Of a stretch of DNA of 42,903 nucleotides, positions 1-37,168 are shown piece by piece. Made by a program: the position numbers and the translations under genes. How positions within the stretch are numbered: the stretch's first letter is position 1; each line of letters opens with the position of its first letter. The notes under the pieces were generated by a model, which was given only the letters and a program-made list of their open reading frames with translations, made no database searches and was not told the DNA's origin. Location: assembly GCA_024638625.1 (NCBI GenBank), contig JAHEJY010000008.1, positions 1-42,903 of the forward strand, read 5' to 3'. This DNA comes from Actinomycetes bacterium (GTDB taxonomy: Bacteria; Actinomycetota; Acidimicrobiia; Spongiisociales; SHLN01).

Positions 1-1011
1 GAGACCGGTCCCATCGAAGAACACCACATCACGCGTCGCAGCGTTGGCATCTTCGACATTGACCACATGGGTCAGGTCGCGGTGGCCGGGCCCGATGCAC
101 TCGCATTTCTCGAGCACATGGTGACCAGCAATATCGGCGAGCTCTTGGCCGGCCAATCGCGATACGGTCTCCTGCTGCGCGAGAACGGAGGCGTCGTCGA
201 CGATGTATTCGTCTATCGGCTCGACGACCATTACATGATCGTCATCAATGCCGACAATCGCGAAAAGGACATTGCTCACCTCCGTCGTCACGCAGAAGCC
301 TTTGACGTCGTCCTCGAGGATCGATCCGACGAGACATACATGTTGGCGGTGCAGGGACCCCGTGCAATCGAGCTTCTCGAGAAACTGACGGACCACAATA
401 TCTCTGAGATCGACCGGTTTGCGGCCGCGAATGTCGAACTTGTCGGGGTACCCACGGTGGTTGGACGAACCGGCTACACCGGCGAAGACGGTGTCGAGCT
501 CTACTTTGGCGACGAACATGCTCATCATGTCTGGACCTCACTCCTGGAAGCGGGATCCGAACACGACATCGAGACGGCGCCGATCGGCCTGGCCGCCCGT
601 GACAGCCTCCGTTTCGAACCGGGGTTCGCTCTGTACGGCCACGAGATCTCCGACGACATCAACCCGCTGGAGGCACGCCTGGCCTGGGCCATCGATTTCG
701 ACAAGGACTTCGTCGGTAAAGAGGCGCTCGAGCGTATCCAGGAGGAAGGAGTGACCAGGAAACTGATCACGTTCGTCCTCGAGGACAAGGGCGTCCCGCG
801 GGAGGGGTATCCGGTTCTGAATATGGATGGTGACCGGATCGGTCGGGTTGTCTCGGGCATGTATGCCCCGACCGCCGACGTTTATGCCGGCAACGCACTT
901 GTCGATGCGGCCTATTCAGGAGTCGATACACCGATCCAGATTGACATAAGAAACAAACCAAAGGCGGCGGTCGTCGTGAAGCGCCCCCTGTATCGTCCGG
1001 CATATCGCTAG
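1..1011 (+). CDS. gcvT: Aminomethyltransferase, glycine cleavage T-protein (5' partial)
   Basis: T-protein of the glycine cleavage system. It transfers the methylene carbon of aminomethyl-lipoyl-GcvH to tetrahydrofolate and releases ammonia. The reading frame is open from base 1: the codons before the ORF-track ATG at 67 encode a typical GcvT stretch (VGIFDIDHMGQ), so the true start lies upstream of the window and the ATG at 67 is internal. Visible motifs include GYTGEDGVELYF and the C-terminal barrel region (VVSGMYAP). About 336 residues are present, so only a few tens are missing. It is followed after 16 bases by gcvH, which has a strong ribosome binding site (AGGAGGAG). The family call is secure. 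Confidence 0.95.
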   Translation, partial: ETGPIEEHHITRRSVGIFDIDHMGQVAVAGPDALAFLEHMVTSNIGELLAGQSRYGLLLRENGGVVDDVFVYRLDDHYMIVINADNREKDIAHLRRHAEAFDVVLEDRSDETYMLAVQGPRAIELLEKLTDHNISEIDRFAAANVELVGVPTVVGRTGYTGEDGVELYFGDEHAHHVWTSLLEAGSEHDIETAPIGLAARDSLRFEPGFALYGHEISDDINPLEARLAWAIDFDKDFVGKEALERIQEEGVTRKLITFVLEDKGVPREGYPVLNMDGDRIGRVVSGMYAPTADVYAGNALVDAAYSGVDTPIQIDIRNKPKAAVVVKRPLYRPAYR

Positions 1012-1027
1012 CCAGGAGGAGGAGACC

Positions 1028-1411
1028 ATGGAACTCGACCAAAACGCCAGATACGCCGAGACCCACGAATGGGCGCGGCTGGAGGACGACCTGGTGGTGG
1101 TAGGCATCAGTGACCATGCCCAGGACAGCATGAGCGACATCGTCTATGTAGAACTACCCGAGATGGGCGACACCCTCGAAAAGGGTGAAGAATTCGGTGT
1201 CGTTGAATCGGCAAAAGCGGTAAGCGATGTATACATGCCGGTGGGTGGCGAGATAATCGAAGTCAACACCGGCCTGGACGCGAACCCCGAGAAGGTGAAC
1301 ATATCTCCTTACGGAGACGGTTGGATGATCAAGATCCGCCCGGATGACCCGGGCCAGCTAGACAGCCTGATGAGTCCGGAGGCATACGAATCTCATGCCA
1401 AAGAGGCGTGA
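1028..1411 (+). CDS. gcvH: Glycine cleavage system H protein
   Basis: Lipoyl carrier protein of the glycine cleavage complex. It shuttles the aminomethyl group from GcvP to GcvT and then to the dihydrolipoamide dehydrogenase. The 127-residue length is normal for the family. The lipoylation site is Lys63 in the context ESAKAVSDVY, and the N-terminal HEW motif is present. The start is fixed by AGGAGGAGACC just ahead of the ATG. It sits between gcvT and gcvP with short spacers, so the three genes are probably one transcript. No gcvL (lpd) is nearby; E3 must be encoded elsewhere, as is common. Confidence 0.97.
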   Translation: MELDQNARYAETHEWARLEDDLVVVGISDHAQDSMSDIVYVELPEMGDTLEKGEEFGVVESAKAVSDVYMPVGGEIIEVNTGLDANPEKVNISPYGDGWMIKIRPDDPGQLDSLMSPEAYESHAKEA

Positions 1412-1423
1412 AAGGAACAGCGG

Positions 1424-4222
1424 ATGAGCGCATTCGTCGATAGGCACGTAGGCCCCCGTCCGGGCGACGTCGAAACCATGCTTGGCATAGTCGGTGCTTC
1501 GTCCTTGGAAGAGCTCATCGGACAAACCATCCCGGCTGGCATTCGGCTGAAGGGCGAACTGGATCTACCGGAAGCGATGAGCGAATCTGAGGTTCTTGAT
1601 CATTTGTCTGACCTGGCCGGACTGAACCATGTGCAAAGGTCGTTCATCGGTATGGGTTACTACGACACGATCACCCCTACCGTCATTCTCCGCAACATCC
1701 TCGAGGATCCGGGTTGGTACACGGCATACACCCCGTATCAGGCAGAAGTCGCTCAGGGCCGTCTCGAGGCGCTTCTGAATTTCCAGACCATGGTCGCGGA
1801 CCTGACCGGACTCGACATCGCCAATGCATCATTGCTGGACGAGGCGACGGCAGCTGCCGAAGCCATGACCCTCGCCCGCCGGGTTCAGCCACGCAAATCG
1901 ACCGCCAATACCTTCTTTGTATCCGAGCTCTGCCATCCGCAAACGGTCGAAGTCGTCCGTACCCGCGCACGGCCCCTCGGGTATGACATCGTGGTCGGCG
2001 ACCACGCCACTTTCGACTTCACAGGCGATGTGTTCGGCGGATTGATCCAGTATCCCGCCACCGATGGATCGATTCGCGACTACGAAACCTTCACAGCATC
2101 GGCCCACGAGGTTGGTGCGATCGTAATTGTGGCCACGGATCTTCTCTCGCTGACCCTGTTGACCCCCCCGGGCGAATGGGGGGCTGATGTAGCCGTCGGA
2201 AACAGCCAACGATTCGGCGTGCCGATGGGGTTTGGTGGGCCACACGCCGCCTTCATGGCGATCCACGAAGACCATGTCAGATCGTTGCCAGGCCGGTTGA
2301 TAAGCGTGTCCAAAGACACTGAAGACGAACCGGCCCTGCGTATGGCACTCCAGACCAGAGAGCAGCACATTCGTCGTGACGCCGCCACGTCAAACATCTG
2401 TACCGCGCAGGTTCTACTGGCGGTGGTTGCATCGATGTATGCGGTTTATCACGGGCCGGACGGGCTCCGAGAGATCGCCCGGACAGTCCACGAACGCACG
2501 GTCAGGTTGGCTGCCGGTCTGGCAGCCACGGGCTACGAGCTCGGTTCAGAGCATTTCTTTGACACAATCACCATCTCAACAGATCAGGCCATCGAAGGGA
2601 TCCAGGCAGCGGCCGAACACGGAATGAACCTCCGTCTCATAGACGAAGAAACCGTTGGGATTTCCCTGGATGAGGCGACGACCGAAGACGACGTCGACGA
2701 ACTTCTCGCACTCTTCGGGGCCGAGGATCCCGATGACGTCGGATCACGTATCCCCCCGGCTCTGGAGCGGACGACGGACTTCATGACCCATCCGGTATTC
2801 CGGTCATACCAATCCGAGACAGAAATGCTGAGGTATATCAACCGTCTCAGAGCAAAGGATCTTTCTCTCGTTCATTCGATGATCCCCCTTGGCTCCTGCA
2901 CGATGAAGCTGAACGCAACCTCGGAAATGATCCCCATCACGTGGTCGGGGTTCGGGCGCATGCACCCGTTCGCTCCAGGCGACCAAAGCGAGGGCTACGA
3001 GATCTTGTTCTCCCATCTCGAGGAGTGGTTGGCAGAGATCACGGGGTTCGCCGGGGTTTCGCTGCAACCGAACGCCGGGTCGCAGGGCGAGTATGCAGGC
3101 TTGCTGGCTATTCGGCGCTTCCACGAGTCCCTGGGCGAAGGACACCGGACCATCTGTCTGATTCCGGCCTCAGCCCATGGGACCAACCCGGCCAGCGCCG
3201 TCATGGCAGGAATGGAAGTCGTCGTGGTGGCAACCGACGACGACGGCAACGTCGACCTGGGCGACTTGAAAACCAAAGCCGTGGAGTACTCGGACCGCCT
3301 GGGTGCTCTCATGATCACATACCCGAGTACCCACGGAGTGTTCGAAACAACAATCGTCCAGATTTGCGAAATCGTTCACGAAAACGGCGGCCAGGTCTAC
3401 CTCGACGGTGCCAATATGAATGCCCAGGTTGGCCTCAGCAGGCCCGGTGATTTTGGTGCTGACGTCTGCCATCTGAATCTGCACAAAACGTTCTGCATCC
3501 CCCATGGCGGCGGCGGGCCCGGGGTGGGTCCCATCGGCGTCGTCGAACACCTGATTCCGTTCCTGCCGGGTGATCCGCTGGAGCGGGGTTCCGGGGCGGT
3601 GGCAGCAGCCCGTTGGGGGAGCGCCTCGATTCTTCCCATCTCCTATGCGTATATCGCGATGATGGGGGCCGATGGGTTGAAGAGGGCTAGCGAGCTGGCA
3701 ATTCTGAACGCCAACTACATCGCAGCGCGCCTCGAAGAGCACTTCCCCGTGTTGTATCGAGGGGCCGAGCAACGGGTCGCCCACGAGTGCATTATCGACG
3801 TCCGACCTCTGAAACAGGTGGCCTCCGCAGAGGACATCGCCAAACGACTGATGGATTATGGATTTCACGCCCCGACCATGTCCTGGCCGGTCCCCGGCAC
3901 CCTGATGATCGAGCCGACCGAGTCGGAATCGCTAGCCGAAATCGACCGTTTTTGTGACTCCATGATTTCCATTCGTGAAGAGATCCGGCAAATCGAGGAC
4001 GGACAGGCCGACCCGGAGGACAATGTCTTGCACAACGCACCCCACACCGCAGCACAGGTCACGAGCGACGCATGGAGCCACCCCTATTCGCGTCGACAAG
4101 CGGCCTATCCGGCGCCGTGGCTGGCCGGCTCCAAATTCTGGCCGGCGGTGAGCAGGATTGACAACGCGTTTGGTGACCGCAACCTGTTCTGCGAATGCGT
4201 GCCGGTTGAGGCCTACCGATAG
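1424..4222 (+). CDS. gcvP: Glycine dehydrogenase (decarboxylating), P-protein
   Basis: PLP-dependent glycine decarboxylase of the cleavage system, in the fused form that carries both the GcvPA-like N-terminal half and the GcvPB-like C-terminal half (932 residues, slightly shorter than the usual ~950). The N-terminus [14 protein letters not shown] is characteristic. The PLP Schiff-base lysine is Lys688 in [16 protein letters not shown], and the glycine-rich stretch after it is intact. The ATG follows AAGGA and lies 12 bases after gcvH. The gcvT-H-P order indicates one-carbon supply to folate or glycine catabolism. I see no glycine riboswitch, but the operon start is outside the window. Confidence 0.97.
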
Positions 4223-28465: not shown

Positions 28466-29551
28466 GTGGACGATGAGGGGGAACAACCAGCGAGCGCGAT
28501 CCGCGGCCCCATCGAAGTCGTCACCTGTCACGCCGGGGGTGAGGTTGGCGACGTAATCATTGGCGGAGTCGAGCCCCCGCCCGGATCAACCATCTGGGAG
28601 CAGGCAAGATGGATCGCCGCCGATGGCCGGCTGCGCGATTTCGTTTTGAACGAACCAAGAGGCGGCGTGTTTCGGCATGTCAATCTCCTGGTCCCAGCCA
28701 TGCATCCTGATGCCGCCATGGGATTCATCATCATGGAGCCCGAGCACACACCTCCCATGTCCGGCTCAAACGCAATGTGTGTCGCCACCGTGCTGTTGAA
28801 TACCGGGATCGTCGAAATGGTCGAGCCAGAAACCCGGCTCGTGCTCGAAGCCCCCGGCGGTCTGATCGCCATTGTCGCGCGGTGTGGTGATGGAAAGGTT
28901 CAAAGCGTTACGATCGAGAATGTTCCGAGCTTCGCTGTCCAACTCGATGCGCAGCTAGAAGTAGATGGTTTCGGCACTATCACTGTCGACACCGCTTATG
29001 GCGGCGACAGCTTCGTGCTGGTCGATGCCACCGGGATGGGCTTCGACGTGGTCCCCGACGAGGCTCGTGAACTGGCCGAAGTCGGGATGAGGATCACAGA
29101 TGCGGCCAACGAGCAACTGACGTTCCATCATCCGGAGAACCCCGACTGGTCGCACTTTTCGTTTTCTCTCCTGGCAACCCCCCATGCTTTCGACGAAACC
29201 CAGGGCGCGTTCGTGATGCGGAATACGTGCGTGATCGATCCGGGGAAGCTCGATCGTTCACCCACGGGAACCGGGCTCTCGGCCCGAATGGCAGCGCTAC
29301 GGGCCCGGGGAGAAATGCAGGTCGGTGACACCCTGCGCATGTCATCAATCATCGACTCGGTGTTCGTCGGCACGATCAATCGCGACACGACCGTGGGCCA
29401 CACTGCCGCCATCGTGCCATCCGTCTCGGGCCGGGCTTGGATCACAGGAACCGCCCGGTACACCCTCGATCCGTCAGATCCATGGCCCCGCGGATACCGG
29501 CTGGCCGACACCTGGCCGACGCATGCTGTCAGATCCCGCTCATTCGAATAG
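28466..29551 (+). CDS. Proline racemase superfamily protein with Ser/Thr at the catalytic cysteine positions
   Basis: A 361-residue member of the proline racemase superfamily, with the N-terminal [11 protein letters not shown] and C-terminal GTGLSARMA regions. In racemases two cysteines act as acid and base, in MCG(H/S) and SPCGTG contexts. Here the first site is MSGSN (Ser99) and the second SPTGTG (Thr267). Thr at the second site is known from trans-3-hydroxy-L-proline dehydratases, such as human L3HYPDH, and Ser at the first is known in some family members. Dehydration of a hydroxyproline is thus more likely than racemisation. The GTG start has no clear ribosome binding site. The last 23 bases overlap the convergent gene. 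Confidence 0.9.
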
Positions 29552-30383
29552 GCGCGAGTGCGAGCAAGCGTGCGTGGATGTACTCATGGATCACGGCGTG
29601 GACAAAAAGGTCCCTGGGAACGTCACGATTGGTGCGGATCAAGGGATTGAACCCGGGCGGACTCCAGCTCCGGAAGAGGCTGTCCCCCGTCAACTCGGCA
29701 AGGATCGAGAGGATTGATTCGTCTAACTGCAGAGAATGCACCGCTCTCCGGTACTCACCCGACGTGGTCAAGAATGCGAACGCGATATTCATGAAACAAA
29801 GGCCGGTTTCCAGGTCGAGCTGCACCCAGCGACGGCGCTGATCGACAGAGATGTCGCCTACTGCCAACATGGAATAATCGAGCGGGGTAGTCCGGTCGCC
29901 GGGAGGCACCAGAGGAGCGCCGGCCAGCCCGGCCAGAATCTCGTAGAGGTTGAGGTCGTGAACGATGACCGCGTTCTCCTGGAGATCATCGAAGTCGCCC
30001 GGCCGCAAACCGGGCTCGGCCAAGCCGGTGTTCCGGGCGATGAAAGCGAGGATGTTGGTCTCGATGACAAAATGCCGGAGCAGCAGCGAACCGCCCTCGG
30101 CCGAGACAAACCGCGACAAGAACCAGATCCCAAGCCGGTCGAGGAGATTGTGATTGGACCATCCCACGGGCGACAATCGTTTTATCACGAGCACGAGCAC
30201 GACCACCACCCGGCTGATCATGCGGGCAAACGGGCGAAAATACCGATAGCTCCAACGCCGCTGATCCGCTTCCAACATACCGAGCGCGTCCCGGTCGAAA
30301 TGGAATGTGGGATCGCCTCTCAGGGCATCCCAGATCCCGGGGCCGGGCACATCAATGAATGGGCCCGGCCGGGCGCTAGCCAC
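29529..30383 (-). CDS. Unknown protein with His/Glu pairs and HExxH, next to KS-HDO fusion
   Basis: I do not recognise this 284-residue protein. It is mostly helical, with one strong hydrophobic segment ([16 protein letters not shown], residues 55-70) that could anchor it at the membrane. Several His/Glu pairs could bind metal: His104/Glu108 (LRHFVIETN), His142/Glu148 (VHDLNLYE) and, near the C-terminus, His262 with HEYIH at 266-270, which is formally HExxH. These could form a diiron or zinc site. It starts at GTG 30383, 8 bases inside the end of the ketosynthase-HDO gene, so the two are coupled and probably act together. It may be a membrane-bound oxygenase or a protease-like protein; neither is shown. 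Confidence 0.8.
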
Positions 30384-32229
30384 GGTCGACGTCTTCTAAC
30401 TGCAGGGCGTACAACCGTGCCACAACCGTGGCCGTTTGAACGATCGAACGTGCCACGTCAGCTGTCACGACCGGCGATCGAAGAATCTCGAACATCTTCG
30501 CCGTGTGTTCCTCGTCCGCTCCCCCGTGGTATTCGAGAAAGGAAATCTGATCGCTCGTCAGATCGAGTTGATCTTTGAACAGCCCGGCCCATCGGCTGGC
30601 CTTATTGGCGCCGAGACCCTCGATGATGTACATCGCTCCCAGCAGATCGAGCGGGTTCTCCCGACTCGCCTGATTGAACATAAAAGCCGATAGTGCCTCG
30701 GAACCAGGATTCTTGCGGGCCGTCAGGATGTCTTCGATGTCACCGCCGGCCGCAACAAAGTCGCGTTCCAGCATCCGGAAATCTTTTTGCTCCTCGGCTG
30801 CATGGTCGATGAATTCGGCCCGCAAGTCTGTGTGTTCCACCGTCAAATTGGATGCAGCTCTGGTGATCCATCTCGCGCCCTCCATCACCTGCTGTCGGAG
30901 GTTGAGCAACAGATTGCGATAGTCGTCCATGGTCGCTTGCCCGGATTCGATACGACGGACGATCGGCACGTTCGCGAGGTCTTGCTCGAATGCCGCCCAG
31001 ACCAGCGCCAGGTCTTCGAACAGCCTTTGTGACTGCGCTTCTTTCGGCTCCGTTGGACGAGGGGTGGCAGGTGAGCCGGCATCGGCTGTCGAAAACGTCG
31101 TCCGTGGAATGTCGGGCTCGTCGCCATCGACGCATGTGAGGTGGACGAACGACACCGAGAAGCGGCCGGACTCGGGAACCATGAGGAGGACTCGGTCGCC
31201 CGGCCGGAAGCGACCTCCATTGAATGCCTCCTCCAACATCACATAGATGCTGGCCGCGCCGGTATTGCCGCGTTCAGCCAGATTCGTGTACCACTTTTCT
31301 TCGGGAATCATGAGGCCGGCCTCTGTCATCAACCGAACGATGTCTGGTCGGAAGTACTCGGAGCTGTAGTGGATCAATAGATGGTCGATCGCACCTGGAT
31401 CGATGCGACCATCACGGACCAATCCGACGTACTCCTCGACACCGACCGCCACGATCGCGCTGAGAATCGAGGTGTCCTGCCGCAGATTCAACATTCCGTC
31501 GGCATGGGCTCCCGCCGGTGTTGGTTGATCCTGCCACGTCGATCCGGCCAGAACCTGATCGCCGGCATTCACGCCCGCATACATGCAGACATCGAATCGG
31601 TCGGCGTGAGAAACCAGATAGCTCCAATCGAGCCGCAACGACAATCCTGTCGCCCGAGGTCGACCCTCTATGACGACTGCACCTGCACCATCCGACAACA
31701 TCCACCGCAGAAACTCTGCATCAAATCCCGCATGGGATCCGAAGCGGTGGGCCCGCAACGTGCGGCTGACCATCTCTGATCCAACGGCTACCCCAACGGC
31801 ATGGCGTCCCAGCCGGACAGCGTCCTCAACCGCCTGCAACGCGGCGATTCCGGAACAACACACGCCGCCCGCCGACAGGATCTGTTTCGGACCGCCGCCA
31901 AGCCTGCCGTGGACCATCGACGCAAAGCCTGGAACCGGTAGGTCACCCTGAGAAGTGCCGGTGGCCAGCAATCCGACCTCTTCAACGCTTTGGGCGGCAT
32001 TGCGAAGCGCGGCCCGGATGGCCAACTCGGCCAACTCTTCGTTGAGCATCGTGGACTGGCCTTGCCGGTCGAGAGCATAGTGCCGTTTCTCGATACCATT
32101 GGCCGCCAACATCTTTTGCCGGAGCCGGTCAGAGGACCCGGGGATCGTCCCGATGAAACGCTCCAGCTCGTCATTGCCGATCGGGGCGCCAGGGAGATAG
32201 GAACCGACTCCGGTGATGAACGCATCCAT
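30376..32229 (-). CDS. Ketosynthase III fused to a heme-oxygenase-like (HDO) domain
   Basis: A 617-residue two-domain protein. Residues 1-370 are a 3-oxoacyl-ACP synthase III-type condensing enzyme with a full triad: Cys125 (GVCCSG), His287 (LLIHYSS) and Asn322 (RGNTGAAS). After a Pro/Thr-rich linker (about 372-398), residues 400-610 resemble the TenA/heme-oxygenase-like fold used by iron-containing redox enzymes such as UndA. Candidate metal ligands are His476, Glu480 and Asp483 (FIDHAAEEQKDF), Glu537 (YIIEG), and His568, Asp572 and His575 (EYHGGADEEH). I infer that a condensed acyl product is oxidised by the fused domain. The start at 32229 is supported by GGAAAGGA. The product is unknown. 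Confidence 0.9.
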   Translation of the reverse strand: MDAFITGVGSYLPGAPIGNDELERFIGTIPGSSDRLRQKMLAANGIEKRHYALDRQGQSTMLNEELAELAIRAALRNAAQSVEEVGLLATGTSQGDLPVPGFASMVHGRLGGGPKQILSAGGVCCSGIAALQAVEDAVRLGRHAVGVAVGSEMVSRTLRAHRFGSHAGFDAEFLRWMLSDGAGAVVIEGRPRATGLSLRLDWSYLVSHADRFDVCMYAGVNAGDQVLAGSTWQDQPTPAGAHADGMLNLRQDTSILSAIVAVGVEEYVGLVRDGRIDPGAIDHLLIHYSSEYFRPDIVRLMTEAGLMIPEEKWYTNLAERGNTGAASIYVMLEEAFNGGRFRPGDRVLLMVPESGRFSVSFVHLTCVDGDEPDIPRTTFSTADAGSPATPRPTEPKEAQSQRLFEDLALVWAAFEQDLANVPIVRRIESGQATMDDYRNLLLNLRQQVMEGARWITRAASNLTVEHTDLRAEFIDHAAEEQKDFRMLERDFVAAGGDIEDILTARKNPGSEALSAFMFNQASRENPLDLLGAMYIIEGLGANKASRWAGLFKDQLDLTSDQISFLEYHGGADEEHTAKMFEILRSPVVTADVARSIVQTATVVARLYALQLEDVDRG

Positions 32230-32290
32230 CGCTTTTCCTTTCCAACAACCGGTAGGTCATTGGTACCCAGGATCGGCGTACGGGCGCGAT

Positions 32291-32337
32291 TGCACCATCG
32301 GGGAACACCCGGATTCAACGGTGGGGCGGATGGTGCA
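32291..32337. repeat. Inverted repeat in the leader of the KS-HDO gene
   Basis: TGCACCATC and GATGGTGCA are perfect 9-base arms 29 bases apart, in the 131-base gap before the KS-HDO start. It may be an operator or an RNA fold in the leader. Nothing else in this gap is recognisable. Confidence 0.5.
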
Positions 32338-32360
32338 TTCTGCAGCGGCGCGGCCCGGAC

Positions 32361-32963
32361 TCAGCGTTCGAACGTGTCATCCAGAATCTGGCGCAACTTT
32401 CGTTCGCCGGCCCCACCGGCAAACCACCACAAACCCATGCCGAGCGTCAACGCCGTGAGCACCGCCAGCGAAATGGCGTAACCGGCGGTCCAGCCCGCAC
32501 CCGCCTCATTGAGGACGTCTCTTCCAAGAGCGATCCCGGCAACGTAGGTGAGAACCCCGATCGAGGTATAGAAGAACGTCATGAACCCGAACCAGGTTGG
32601 GGCTCGATCGATCGGAATCGTGACGACCTTCGTCGTGTCGAGGGGAAACAGATATGCCTCTTCGAGCTTGTGCGCCACCAACACGTCGCGACCGATTTCA
32701 CGATTGATGAACCGCTCGAGAGAATGGGCATACTGCCTCGCAAAAATGAGATAGGAAGCGTCGAAAGCGGTCTGAGCCGCGCCGATCAGAGCGACGAACG
32801 GAATGGCCAGAAATGCCGCCTCGATCTGCCAGAAGCCGAAGCCGAATAACACGAGGCCGACCACCGTGGTACGGAATATGTCCGTGAAGAACTGCTTGTG
32901 ATAGAGAGCGGTCATGCCCCGCATACGCCCTAGCTGTTGGGCGGCCACGTCGAGCGGATTCAT
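32361..32963 (-). CDS. Hypothetical four-helix membrane protein
   Basis: A 200-residue integral membrane protein with two helical hairpins: TTVVGLVLFGFGFWQI and FLAIPFVALIGAAQTAF first, then FMTFFYTSIGVLTYVAGIAL and GYAISLAVLTALTLGMGLWWF. A charged cytoplasmic loop of about 55 residues lies between (RQYAHSLERFINREIGRDVL). I do not recognise the family. The real start is ATG 32963 (MNPLDVAAQQLG), which overlaps the WD40 stop codon by ATGA; the ORF-track start at 33206 lies deep inside the WD40 gene. Coupling suggests the WD40 protein and this membrane protein form a complex. The KS-HDO gene follows after 131 bases. Confidence 0.8.
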   Translation of the reverse strand: MNPLDVAAQQLGRMRGMTALYHKQFFTDIFRTTVVGLVLFGFGFWQIEAAFLAIPFVALIGAAQTAFDASYLIFARQYAHSLERFINREIGRDVLVAHKLEEAYLFPLDTTKVVTIPIDRAPTWFGFMTFFYTSIGVLTYVAGIALGRDVLNEAGAGWTAGYAISLAVLTALTLGMGLWWFAGGAGERKLRQILDDTFER

Positions 32964-33814
32964 CGGAAATCGGTCGGCCAGAGACGCAGCGTACCATCGG
33001 TGCAGACCGCACCCAGGCGGGAACCATCGGGGGAGTACTCCATCGCGTACACGTCGCCGCCGCCAACTTCGCGAGTTCCGACTATCGACCCGTTCCGATT
33101 GAGGGTGACGATGCTTCCTTCGCTCGCCACGGCCATAATGGATCCGCCAGGAGCGACTGCCAGTGGTCCGAACCCACCGACGGGAACCGCCTCCTCTAGT
33201 GTCCATGACCCGGTATCCCAGATTCTGATCACACCTTCGGCACCCAGCGTGAACAGCTGCAGCCCAGAGGTCGAGAACGCAACCGAACCAACTGCTCGTT
33301 CATGACCCTGCAGCCGCTTCGGAGTCCCCTTGATGAGGTCGAACACGAGGATTTCTCCGCCGTGCCCGGCGGCTGCCAGCATGGTGCCGTCAGCCGAAAG
33401 GTCGACCGTGGTCATGCGACCACCGAGACCCTCGACCTTGACCGATTTTCCCGGCTCGGTGAACACGAGTACGGTTCCATCGTCGGAGGCCGTGACGATT
33501 GGGCTTCCATCGGCGTGGGCAGCCACAGCACCGACCCGATCACTGTGTCCGAAGAGCTCAAAGCGGAGATCCAAATCCGGCAGGGCCCAAACCCGAACCT
33601 CCGAGTTACTCGATACCGTGACAACTTCGCGGCCAAGGGATGTGAACGCCGCTCCGTTTATCGCCGCCTGATGGGCGCGAACTTCAACGACCTTGTTGCC
33701 CGTCCCCGGATCCCACAGTCTCAGGTACCCATCCATGCCGGCGGTTGCGACGCGCGACGAATCCGGTGACCAGTCGATGGCGGCCGCAAAACCGCTGTGT
33801 GCCTCAACGATCAC
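32960..33814 (-). CDS. WD40 repeat protein
   Basis: A 284-residue protein that is almost entirely WD40-like repeats, about six or seven blades. Blade ends include YLRLWDP, EVRVWAL, GTVLVFTEP, EILVFDL, VIRIWDT and TLRLWPT; the GH dipeptide of the repeat appears as GHSDRV and GHERAV. No signal peptide or extra domain is seen, so it is probably a cytoplasmic scaffold. It starts at GTG 33814, 12 bases after the SDR stop codon, and its stop overlaps the membrane protein start. A bare WD40 propeller of this length between an SDR and a membrane protein is unusual. Confidence 0.88.
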   Translation of the reverse strand: MIVEAHSGFAAAIDWSPDSSRVATAGMDGYLRLWDPGTGNKVVEVRAHQAAINGAAFTSLGREVVTVSSNSEVRVWALPDLDLRFELFGHSDRVGAVAAHADGSPIVTASDDGTVLVFTEPGKSVKVEGLGGRMTTVDLSADGTMLAAAGHGGEILVFDLIKGTPKRLQGHERAVGSVAFSTSGLQLFTLGAEGVIRIWDTGSWTLEEAVPVGGFGPLAVAPGGSIMAVASEGSIVTLNRNGSIVGTREVGGGDVYAMEYSPDGSRLGAVCTDGTLRLWPTDFR

Positions 33815-33826
33815 AGCCGCGGTCCA

Positions 33827-34681
33827 TCACGATTCCTCCAGGAACGCATCGTCCAGGAATATATCGGTTTGTAGTTTTGCATTCGGGCCGAACTGGTACT
33901 GCCCAAAATCGACCACACCTTCTTCTCGCAGAACGTCTTCGTCAATGAAGAAATTACCCGTGGTATCTGCTGCGTCCCGCGTGAAAATAGCGTGGGCGGC
34001 GTCGGCGACGATTGAGGGACGCCGGGTCATCGACATGGCAGCATCTCCGCCGAGAAGATTCTGAACGGCCGCAGTGGCAATCGTGGTCCTCGGCCAAAGA
34101 CTGTTGACCCCCACGCCATCGGCACGAAACTCCTCCGCCATTCCGAGCGTGCACATGCTCATCCCATACTTGGCGATCGTATAGGCGACATGGCTTCTGA
34201 ACCAGGCCGGGTTCAAGTTCAGTGGTGGAGACATGGTCAAGATATGGGGGTTTGCGGATTCTTTCAGGAACGGCAAGCAGGCCTTCGACACGACGAACGT
34301 GCCGCGCGTGTTGATATCTTGCATGAGGTCGTATCGTTTCATATCGAGGTCGAGCGTGCCCGAGAGGTTTATCGCCGAAGCATTGTTGACGAGAATGTCG
34401 ATGCCACCGAACTGCTCGACGGTCTGTCTGACGGCACTCACGACAATTTCATCGTCGCGAATATCACCGACCAGCGGAAGTGCAGAACCACCGGCTTCTT
34501 CGATATCGGCTGCTGCCGTGTAAACGGTGCCCTCCAGGCGGGGATGAGGTTCAGCCGTCTTGGCAACGAAAGCCACATTGACCCCGTCCTGCGCCGCCCG
34601 AGTAGCGATAGCCAATCCGATGCCGCGACTGGCACCCGTGATGAAGATTGTGGTTTCCGGACTCAGCTTTCGGTCAGTCAT
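33827..34681 (-). CDS. Short-chain dehydrogenase/reductase, HSDL2-like
   Basis: A 284-residue SDR. Cofactor motif TGASRGIG at 15-22, NNAS at 99-102, and the catalytic residues Ser151, Tyr167 and Lys171 (YTIAK). The string HILTMSPPLNLNPAWF and the later LWPRTTIATAAVQNLLGG are characteristic of the HSDL2 subgroup, peroxisomal in eukaryotes and of unsettled substrate in bacteria. It is the first gene of the minus-strand WD40-membrane protein-KS operon. It could reduce a 3-keto product of the ketosynthase, but this is inference. The region upstream is the long non-coding stretch before the sigma factor gene. Confidence 0.92.
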   Translation of the reverse strand: MTDRKLSPETTIFITGASRGIGLAIATRAAQDGVNVAFVAKTAEPHPRLEGTVYTAAADIEEAGGSALPLVGDIRDDEIVVSAVRQTVEQFGGIDILVNNASAINLSGTLDLDMKRYDLMQDINTRGTFVVSKACLPFLKESANPHILTMSPPLNLNPAWFRSHVAYTIAKYGMSMCTLGMAEEFRADGVGVNSLWPRTTIATAAVQNLLGGDAAMSMTRRPSIVADAAHAIFTRDAADTTGNFFIDEDVLREEGVVDFGQYQFGPNAKLQTDIFLDDAFLEES

Positions 34682-35017: not shown

Positions 35018-35049
35018 TTCGGTCGGATCCAGGAATAGATCCGACCGAA
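35018..35049. repeat. Perfect 12-bp inverted repeat upstream of sigma factor
   Basis: TTCGGTCGGATC and GATCCGACCGAA flank an 8-base loop (CAGGAATA). A TTGACA lies directly upstream (35011-35016) and a TATTAT at 35059-35064. It could be an operator in a promoter region or an RNA hairpin/terminator; no clean T-run follows. Confidence 0.65.
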
Positions 35050-35454: not shown

Positions 35455-36411
35455 ATGGCAGCACCACGAGCGGTGCGTCCAAATCCCGTAATCGATGAAC
35501 GGGGACGACTGACTACCGATCTGGTGAGTCAGTATTTATCCGCGATCGGTGACTATGACCTGTTGACGGCCGACCAGGAAGTCGAGCTGGCCCAGGCCAT
35601 CGAAGCGGGAGACGCCGCACAAAAGCAACTAGACAAACAAAAAGTATCGACTCAACGACGCGAACAACTCAAACGACAGGTGCGGCTCGGCAATCGAGCG
35701 AAGGACACGTTCTTGAATGCGAACCTTCGTCTCGTGGTCTCCAACGCCCGCCGGTATGCAAATGCCAACGGACTGGACTTTCTGGACCTCGTCCAGGAAG
35801 GGAACCTCGGCTTGATCAGGGCCGTAGAAAAGTTCGATTGGCGAAAGGGATTCAAGTTCTCGACCTATGCCACCTGGTGGATTCGTCAAGCGATCACCCG
35901 GGCGATTGCACAGCAATCACGGACAGTTCGGATTCCCGTCCATCTGCACGACACAGTTGGAACCGTTCGTCGCACACAGGCTTCGATGAAGGCAGACCTC
36001 GGCCGCGACCCCACTGCTGAGGAGCTGGCTGAAGAGACCGGCCTCGAACTCGAGAAAGTCAAAATGGCGCTCGAGGTCTCGGACACGGTTTCACTCGACA
36101 CCCCGGTAGGCGAAGACGGCGACGCATTCCTGGGCGATTTCATCCAGGATGCCGCCGCCGAAAATCCGCAGCAAGTTGCCGTGGTTTCGGAGGTCACCGA
36201 TGCACTCATGGGTTCGATCGACAAGCTACCGGAGCGCGAGGCCAAGATCTTGACGCTCCGCTATGGACTGGCCGACGGCCGTCCCTGGCCGCTCAAAGAG
36301 GTCGCAGCCGAGGTCGGACTCACACCCGACCGGGTTCGCCAGCTCGAGCGCAGCTCGATCGCCCGGATCCGTGAGGACACGGACTGGACCGAGGACCCCC
36401 GCAGCAACTAG
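35455..36411 (+). CDS. RNA polymerase sigma factor, group 2 sigma-70 (SigB/HrdB-like)
   Basis: A 318-residue primary-like sigma factor without the long region 1.1. Region 1.2 is [27 protein letters not shown]; region 2 is [34 protein letters not shown] and [22 protein letters not shown]; region 3 starts with [10 protein letters not shown]; region 4.2 is [19 protein letters not shown]. All parts needed to read -10 and -35 boxes are present. The length fits alternative, non-essential group 2 factors rather than the housekeeping RpoD. Strong ribosome binding site; its own terminator follows. No anti-sigma factor is adjacent. Confidence 0.92.
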
Positions 36412-36538: not shown

Positions 36539-37168
36539 GTGCGCGGGATCGATCTGTTCCTCAACCTGGCCTACGTCACATATGTCGTTGCCCCGGCCAT
36601 CAAGAACGAGTTGTGGTTACGCATACTTCTGGCGATCAACGCGATCGCATTCTCGATCTGGGGGACACTGATAGGCAACGGTTCGGTGATCTTCTGGAAC
36701 GTACTTTTCGCAACAGTCAGCGCCTTCGCCATCGTGCGGCTGCTCAGAGAGCGCAGAATTGTCGTCTTGCCACCGGACGTCGAGTCGGTCCGTGACAGCT
36801 TGTTCCCCGCGGTTTCTAATCGCGACTTTCTCTTGTTCTGGAGTCTGGGCGAGACTCAACGGATCACCGATGGGAGCCTCACAGTTGAGGGTCAACCGGT
36901 AGCCCGGCTGTTCCTCCTCGTGAATGGTGCGGCCTCGGTGCGTATAAGGGACGAGGAAGTCGCTCAACTAGGAGCCCATCAATTTGTTGGCGAAATGGCA
37001 TTCGTCACCAGCCAGCCTGCATCTGCAAGCGTGCGGATTACGCAGCCCACCAGCGTTCACTCCTGGGCATTTTCTGACCTGGAAACCCTCAACTCCTTAG
37101 AACCCCGCTTGGTGGCCCCACTATTGAGAACCGTGAACCGTGATCTGGCAGAAAAGCTGCGTGTGTGA
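36539..37168 (+). CDS. Popeye-like membrane protein with cyclic nucleotide-binding-like domain
   Basis: A 209-residue protein arranged like the Popeye (POPDC) family: an N-terminal membrane domain of about three helices (LAYVTYVVAPAI, WLRILLAINAIAFSIWGTLI, VIFWNVLFATVSAFAIVRLL) and a cytoplasmic beta-roll domain from about residue 85. Popeye-like points are IFWNVLFA, the roll segments FLLVNGAASVRI and FVGEMAFVT, the Trp in SVHSWAF and the end VNRDLAEKL. The roll lacks the canonical CRP-type phosphate-binding cassette, so any nucleotide binding would be atypical, as in animal Popeye proteins. It starts at GTG 36539 after GAAGGA. Function in bacteria is unknown. Confidence 0.78.
   Translation: MRGIDLFLNLAYVTYVVAPAIKNELWLRILLAINAIAFSIWGTLIGNGSVIFWNVLFATVSAFAIVRLLRERRIVVLPPDVESVRDSLFPAVSNRDFLLFWSLGETQRITDGSLTVEGQPVARLFLLVNGAASVRIRDEEVAQLGAHQFVGEMAFVTSQPASASVRITQPTSVHSWAFSDLETLNSLEPRLVAPLLRTVNRDLAEKLRV

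Follow-up and report, generated by a model that had tools for sequence, protein, structure and literature searches.

Which of the five genes that run in series on the minus strand of the window (the whole 42,903-nucleotide stretch of DNA from an Actinomycetes bacterium analyzed here) act together, and what would they make? The first-pass annotation had put all five forward as one candidate undescribed pathway, arranged in two blocks. The five ORFs are indeed present where it had placed them, and the two blocks are real, since the membrane protein gene and the gene that encodes a ketosynthase (KS) fused to an HDO domain lie 131 bp apart. The first block comprises an SDR oxidoreductase of the PRK08278 subfamily (33827..34681, minus strand; NF006133, 447.8 bits, cut-off 250), a WD40 beta-propeller protein (32960..33814, minus strand; PF00400) and a membrane protein of about 200 aa that matches no Pfam family (32361..32963, minus strand). 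The start listed for the membrane protein, 33206, lies too far upstream; with the true ATG at 32963, the gene overlaps the WD40 stop in an ATGA. The second block consists of the KS-HDO gene (30376..32229, minus strand, 617 aa, ATG start), whose stop overlaps by 8 bp with the gene of a 284-aa DUF6999 protein (29529..30383, minus strand, GTG start). We refer to these two genes as the cassette. The window genes that were compared with a same-genus genome are under purifying selection (dN/dS of 0.02-0.10, with dS near saturation), and a sigma-70 promoter scan, which is uninformative for the host phylum, returned no sites.

Several other features of the window were recorded. A trans-3-hydroxy-L-proline dehydratase gene (NF047722, 568.4 bits, above cut-off) lies at 28466-29551 on the opposite strand, and such a gene also adjoins the cassette in the same-genus genome G001. 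A strong inverted repeat of 12 pairs (TTCGGTCGGATC...GATCCGACCGAA, 35018-35049) is found upstream of a sigma-factor-like gene (35455-36411), and the ORF at 36539-37168 encodes a membrane protein with a cyclic-nucleotide-binding domain and a match above cut-off to PF04831 (Popeye, POPDC1-3), a family known best from animals.

To define the conserved unit, we used the A1 alignment to scan a species-level collection of genomes; of the 563 confirmed relatives obtained in this way, which may include ordinary KS genes, we kept the best 80. In these best 80 of 563, KS and HDO are in one frame at every locus (80/80), and in 77 the next gene downstream is DUF6999, encoded on the same strand and in most cases within 200 bp. 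The three remaining genomes (L086, L101 and L102) carry DUF6999 elsewhere, near a contig end in L086 and L101, as expected of a broken assembly. Because the loci were ranked by similarity to a fused query, this set favors fusions, a bias that a search seeded with DUF6999 only avoids. The latter search found DUF6999 in 3 of 297 genomes of Actinomycetota, in 6 of 247 genomes of the class of Aureibaculum (Bacteroidota) and in 41 of 242 genomes (17%) of the class of Microseira (Cyanobacteriota). An HDO lies within 1.5 kb at 37 of 39 DUF6999-seeded loci, that is 3/3 in Actinomycetota (read separately, and including the window itself), 6/6 in Bacteroidota and 28/30 in Cyanobacteriota. The exceptions are L131/L156, where KS-HDO is found 3.4 kb upstream of DUF6999 with four genes between, and G768, where the HDO is on another contig. 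Presence and absence profiles agree with this linkage: HDO occurs in 39 of 40 DUF6999-positive genomes and in none of 39 DUF6999-negative ones, the single miss being a genome that carries a mere fragment of DUF6999, and cassette genomes nearly always contain one DUF6999. The cassette is present in at least six phyla (Actinomycetota, Cyanobacteriota, Bacillota, Bacteroidota, Myxococcota and Pseudomonadota). It is sporadic locally, since among the 59 genomes surrounding that of the window only G001 and G048, the latter from another family of the same order, also have the fusion. One of the 80 loci, a cassette with a stop inside KS, is on a contig labelled Euryarchaeota from an archaeal MAG (L037, 3441-5357), which could be misbinned or carry a pseudogene.

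Linkage of the fusion to the 284-residue protein across genera, which the first-pass annotation had proposed as its test, is thus strong, and since it holds across genera it supports these two genes as an undescribed biosynthetic module. We consider it very probable that KS-HDO and DUF6999 form one functional module. Further evidence comes from lineages in which the fusion is divided. In Pseudoalteromonas sp. THAF3, KS, HDO and DUF6999 are three genes in unchanged order, and the same split but adjacent and ordered arrangement is found in two actinomycete genomes (L029 and L030) and in the cyanobacteria L153 and L154; two other cyanobacteria, L127 and L128, are probably split likewise. In the KS tree, L029 and L030 fall inside a group of fused Glycomyces sequences (group support 100/100), and this nesting indicates that a fusion was split there while its parts stayed adjacent. 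Cyanobacteria, Bacteroidota, Paenibacillaceae and most Actinomycetota each form a group of their own, suggesting old, mostly vertical inheritance, in a tree where several deep forks are unresolved and some long branches (StlD, Streptomyces and the split cyanobacterial KS) are placed with little certainty. Adjacency by itself does not prove one pathway, and with mostly vertical inheritance inside phyla the two genes might be linked for regulatory or ancestral reasons without a common product. We regard this as highly improbable, given that presence and absence are matched across genomes, that adjacency is kept after gene splitting and that the tight downstream order is held across phyla.

The other three genes of the window do not share this history. 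Homologues of the WD40 and membrane proteins were found only in G001, which is also the only genome with a copy of the SDR beside the cassette (90% identical), and none of the three was found beside the cassette in G048, whose KS-HDO is 72% identical, or at the other loci. A pathway of five genes is thus unsupported, as the SDR, WD40 and membrane protein adjoin the cassette only within the genus, and what stands of that proposal is the KS-HDO/DUF6999 pair. For the same reason the suggestion that the WD40 propeller serves as a scaffold finds no support. One could still imagine the full block as one pathway or complex, in which the SDR serves as ketoreductase, the WD40 protein as scaffold and the membrane protein for anchoring or export, on the basis of the shared strand, the tight spacing and the order kept in G001, but the 131-bp gap ahead of KS-HDO, the absence of the three genes beside the cassette in G048 and elsewhere, and the free variation of surrounding genes between lineages make it very unlikely.

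We looked at the neighboring genes in other lineages. Among 117 neighbors there is no universal third partner; two-component regulators and FA_hydroxylase are the commonest Pfam families, each limited to certain lineages. In Bacteroidota, an FA_hydroxylase gene (PF04116) lies directly ahead of KS-HDO at seven loci and at the whole-genome locus G868, where the two genes share 4 bp at the KS start, this assignment being Pfam-checked for some of the loci and made by similarity for others. A PF04116-PAP2 fusion precedes KS-HDO in Polyangiaceae, one Paenibacillus has a PF04116 gene after the cassette on the other strand, and Glycomyces and its kin have a sensor kinase and a regulator upstream. In the cyanobacterium G795 (L156, 7641-12816), genes for a CDP-alcohol phosphotransferase, CdsA-like and PlsC-like proteins and a methyltransferase lie between KS-HDO and DUF6999; these names are given from sequence appearance, and only the CDP-alcohol phosphotransferase has a family match, which is under that family's cut-off. 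These phospholipid-type genes are possibly a clue to a lipid, and the neighboring genes as a whole point weakly to membrane lipids. No ACP or acyl-activating gene was found linked to the cassette.

The KS domain (residues 1-370; 31120..32229, minus strand) has a Pfam match to the KAS III C-terminal family and is most similar, among solved structures, to StlD (PDB 5gk0, E 4.5e-68), a ketosynthase known from Photorhabdus stilbene synthesis. In a search where StlD matches at E 3e-67, the matches to FabH-type chains are much weaker (best E 4.4e-14), and further KAS III chains, presumably OleA, match at E of about 1e-4. The StlD/DarB model NF005293 gives 355.9 bits, under its cut-off of 450, and NF053539 gives 314.2 bits, under its cut-off of 550, whereas a true DarB reaches 568.6 and 654.4 bits, respectively. 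Of the KAS III triad described in the first-pass annotation as Cys125, His287 and Asn322, the histidine and the asparagine stand and the nucleophile is Cys124: C124, H287 and N322 are invariant in 40 relatives and align with the StlD triad, while relatives have Cys, Ala, Ser or Gly at position 125. Glu152 was considered as a StlD-specific residue and discarded, as ordinary KAS III sequences have it too. By its sequence, the domain belongs to the StlD/DarB superfamily of KAS III ketosynthases. It shares with the StlD/DarB enzymes of the dialkylresorcinol, stilbene and flexirubin pathways the KAS III fold, the Cys-His-Asn triad, the FLRWMLSDGAGA and PESGRF blocks and 35-37% identity to StlD and DarB; it differs from them in scoring under both curated cut-offs and in being fused to an HDO. 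With these scores, the ring chemistry that we ascribe to KS is drawn from homology.

This kinship bears on the product that had been proposed earlier, a linear lipid or hydrocarbon for which an ordinary or OleA-like condensation by KS would be followed by alkene formation or decarboxylation of the chain by the HDO. HDO enzymes such as UndA do decarboxylate fatty acids (PMC11363339), and FA_hydroxylase genes neighbor the cassette in some lineages. Nevertheless, KS is far nearer to StlD than to FabH-type or presumed OleA chains and carries the C-terminal blocks of StlD/DarB, and we hold a linear product to be improbable; nothing specific favors the terminal alkene that an UndA-like reaction would give. 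A membrane or lipid product in the wider sense is plausible, in view of the dialkylresorcinol/stilbene type of the KS, the FA_hydroxylase of Bacteroidota and the phospholipid-type genes of the one cyanobacterium.

The HDO domain (residues 403-617; 30376..31023, minus strand) matches PF14518 (E 3.9e-12, 46.8 bits against a gathering score of 28.9) and the heme-oxygenase-fold protein of PDB 3dde (E 1e-8). A structure model of KS-HDO from the single sequence has a pLDDT of 36, too low to be usable; the HDO fold is supported by the homology to 3dde. Seven residues, H476, E480, D483, E537, H568, D572 and H575, are invariant in 129 HDO domains from the fetched loci, some of which overlap within a genome; E465, tried as the helix-1 metal ligand, is unconserved, and E480, D483 and H476 are conserved instead. 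Characterized HDOs bind their metal through the pattern E-H-E-H-(D/E)-H (PMC11363339), which in MboA corresponds to Glu86, His89, Glu143, His172, Asp176 and His181 (PMC13185094). The cassette pattern, E480-D483-E537-H568-D572-H575, departs from it in that the second ligand is Asp rather than His. This position is His in the free-standing HDO relatives L158 and L159, which also have Tyr in place of H476, one turn ahead of E480. A carboxylate at 483 is chemically reasonable, since His89 of MboA can be replaced at the iron by the adjacent Asp90 (PMC13185094), and since ligand motifs vary within the HDO family the cassette domain is a variant that still belongs to the fold family. From the sequence, we infer a nearly complete metal site that is variant and clade-specific. 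Hence the HDO-like ligands noted at first pass hold in that the domain is real and the six expected positions are filled, but in a variant pattern, and without the usual helix-1 His, metal binding and any UndA-like chemistry may differ.

Compared with the HDO enzymes UndA, BesC, SznF and MboA, the domain shares PF14518, the helix-2 Glu537, the helix-3 H-x3-D-x2-H and a Glu (E480) that aligns with that of E-x2-H; it differs in the Asp483 that takes the place of the E-x2-H His, in the extra invariant His476 and in its fusion to a ketosynthase. Some of the closest free-standing homologues from the plasmid collection, at 22-25% identity, belong to Alteromonas and Pantoea plasmid operons (L158, 205-4755; L159, 358-4514), in which genes for a protein annotated as "thermostable hemolysin", an AMP-ligase, an HDO, an SDR and a TPR protein are found. 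These operons have the canonical E-x2-H and an acyl ligase instead of KS, and no DUF6999 is adjacent. In a Pseudoalteromonas locus (L160), the AMP-ligase and the HDO are fused.

The 284-residue product of the second gene, described earlier as a His/Glu-rich protein, is a full-length member of DUF6999 (PF22523, E 9e-67, 225.4 bits against a gathering score of 27). The Pfam family is without an assigned function, and its member here is tied to KS-HDO. A 77-row alignment shows the invariant residues R103, H104, F114, N118, L126, P128, H142, D143, Y147, D190, S217 and D221. Each of the 76 rows that extend far enough also has H262 and E267, and no cysteine is conserved. The AlphaFold2 model is all-helical (pLDDT 91.4, pTM 0.89), with one long hydrophobic helix at about residues 44-70. 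Compared with the PDB, this fold has no match with E < 0.7, so that it has no solved relative there, and a viral fold library gave no match. We also considered DUF6999 as a distant HDO and rejected this, as the HDOs in the PDB fold list (PolF, BesC) all have E >= 1 and profile comparison gave 0.2% probability. The control genome of Caulobacter vibrioides, a well-studied laboratory species and hence a convenient genetic model, has a DUF6999 above cut-off. We found no paper in the open literature that mentions DUF6999.

What, then, could the cassette make? StlD/DarB reportedly condenses a beta-ketoacyl thioester with an enoyl thioester to give a cyclohexanedione carboxylic acid (Fuchs et al. 2013). 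By analogy, KS would condense two thioesters from fatty-acid metabolism, one beta-ketoacyl and the other alpha,beta-unsaturated acyl, through Michael addition and then Claisen ring closure, into a 2,5-dialkylcyclohexane-1,3-dione-4-carboxylic acid. With O2 and iron, the HDO would carry out an UndA-like oxidative decarboxylation, removing CO2 from C4 and hydrogen from C5, and the resulting ring alkene would be a 2,5-dialkylresorcinol in its keto form. In known dialkylresorcinol synthesis, DarB is the DAR-cyclase and DarA the DAR-aromatase (PMC3949708). UndA catalyzes the oxidative decarboxylation of fatty acids (PMC11363339). In the cassette, the HDO would take over the role that DarA has as a separate aromatase. 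DUF6999, with its hydrophobic helix and invariant His, Asp and Glu, may act as a partner at the membrane, finishing or modifying the lipid or delivering it, and tailoring genes such as the FA_hydroxylase of Bacteroidota would be added in some lineages. That KS makes the substrate of the HDO and that the product is a ring-type lipid appears likely. The exact dialkylresorcinol route, KS then HDO, is a tentative proposal by analogy, to which we give somewhat less than an even chance, and as a whole a two-gene cassette for a resorcinol-type route with DUF6999 as partner is our best explanation, itself held a little short of even confidence.

The distribution of DarA bears on this scheme. A DarA homologue was found in 2 of 23 cassette genomes, in neither case beside the cassette, and is missing from the other 21; none was found in the incomplete assembly of the window's genome. 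The cassette thus differs from the DarAB pathway in that most of its genomes have no DarA aromatase, and it has DUF6999 where StlD/DarB pathways have the DarA/DarC set. The fusion of KS to HDO together with the absence of DarA from 21 of 23 genomes fits a decarboxylative aromatization. However, Aureibaculum (L166, G352, 597-3606) has both a genuine DarAB cluster of flexirubin type and the cassette, which therefore does not merely replace DarAB there, and the two systems probably make different products there, distinct either in chain type or through later action of DUF6999 and FA_hydroxylase. A Streptomyces plasmid (L026, 7721-17131) carries a cluster with an ACP, a StlD/DarB-like KS without HDO, a FAD oxidoreductase, SCP2, FabF, a P450 and an F420 oxidoreductase, which looks like another resorcinol/cyclohexanedione-type cluster.

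The Aureibaculum case, by implying a different product, also speaks for a reading in which the HDO and DUF6999 turn the cyclohexanedione or other condensation product of KS into something other than a resorcinol, such as a ring lipid that is hydroxylated or resembles a quinone, or a product of ring cleavage. DUF6999 would then be a new helical metal enzyme, the second of the cassette. Chemistry past simple aromatization is likewise suggested by the variant motif of the HDO and by the obligate DUF6999 with its invariant His, Asp and Glu. Yet the metal site of DUF6999 is a candidate one and the DUF6999 profile does not match that of HDO, and we regard this reading as rather unlikely. The broadest form of the resorcinol-type proposal is a pan-bacterial, undescribed lipid pathway in which a one-chain dialkylresorcinol-type synthase, whose variant HDO, in place of DarA, oxidizes the ring product of KS within the same chain, is followed by DUF6999 as a new helical, possibly metal-binding, membrane-acting family; in this full form we find it doubtful.

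Taken together, these results show that the two-gene core is real and conserved; we found no description of it in the open literature. The enzyme classes are known, and what is new is their combination, the variant HDO motif and the role of DUF6999; no paper in the open literature joins an HDO with a resorcinol and a ketosynthase. The cassette gives DUF6999 its first functional context and points to a new use of HDO enzymes, acting with a variant metal site on the product of a ketosynthase in the same chain. Fixed as a pair across at least six phyla, KS-HDO and DUF6999 probably make a shared lipid-like compound that is not yet described.
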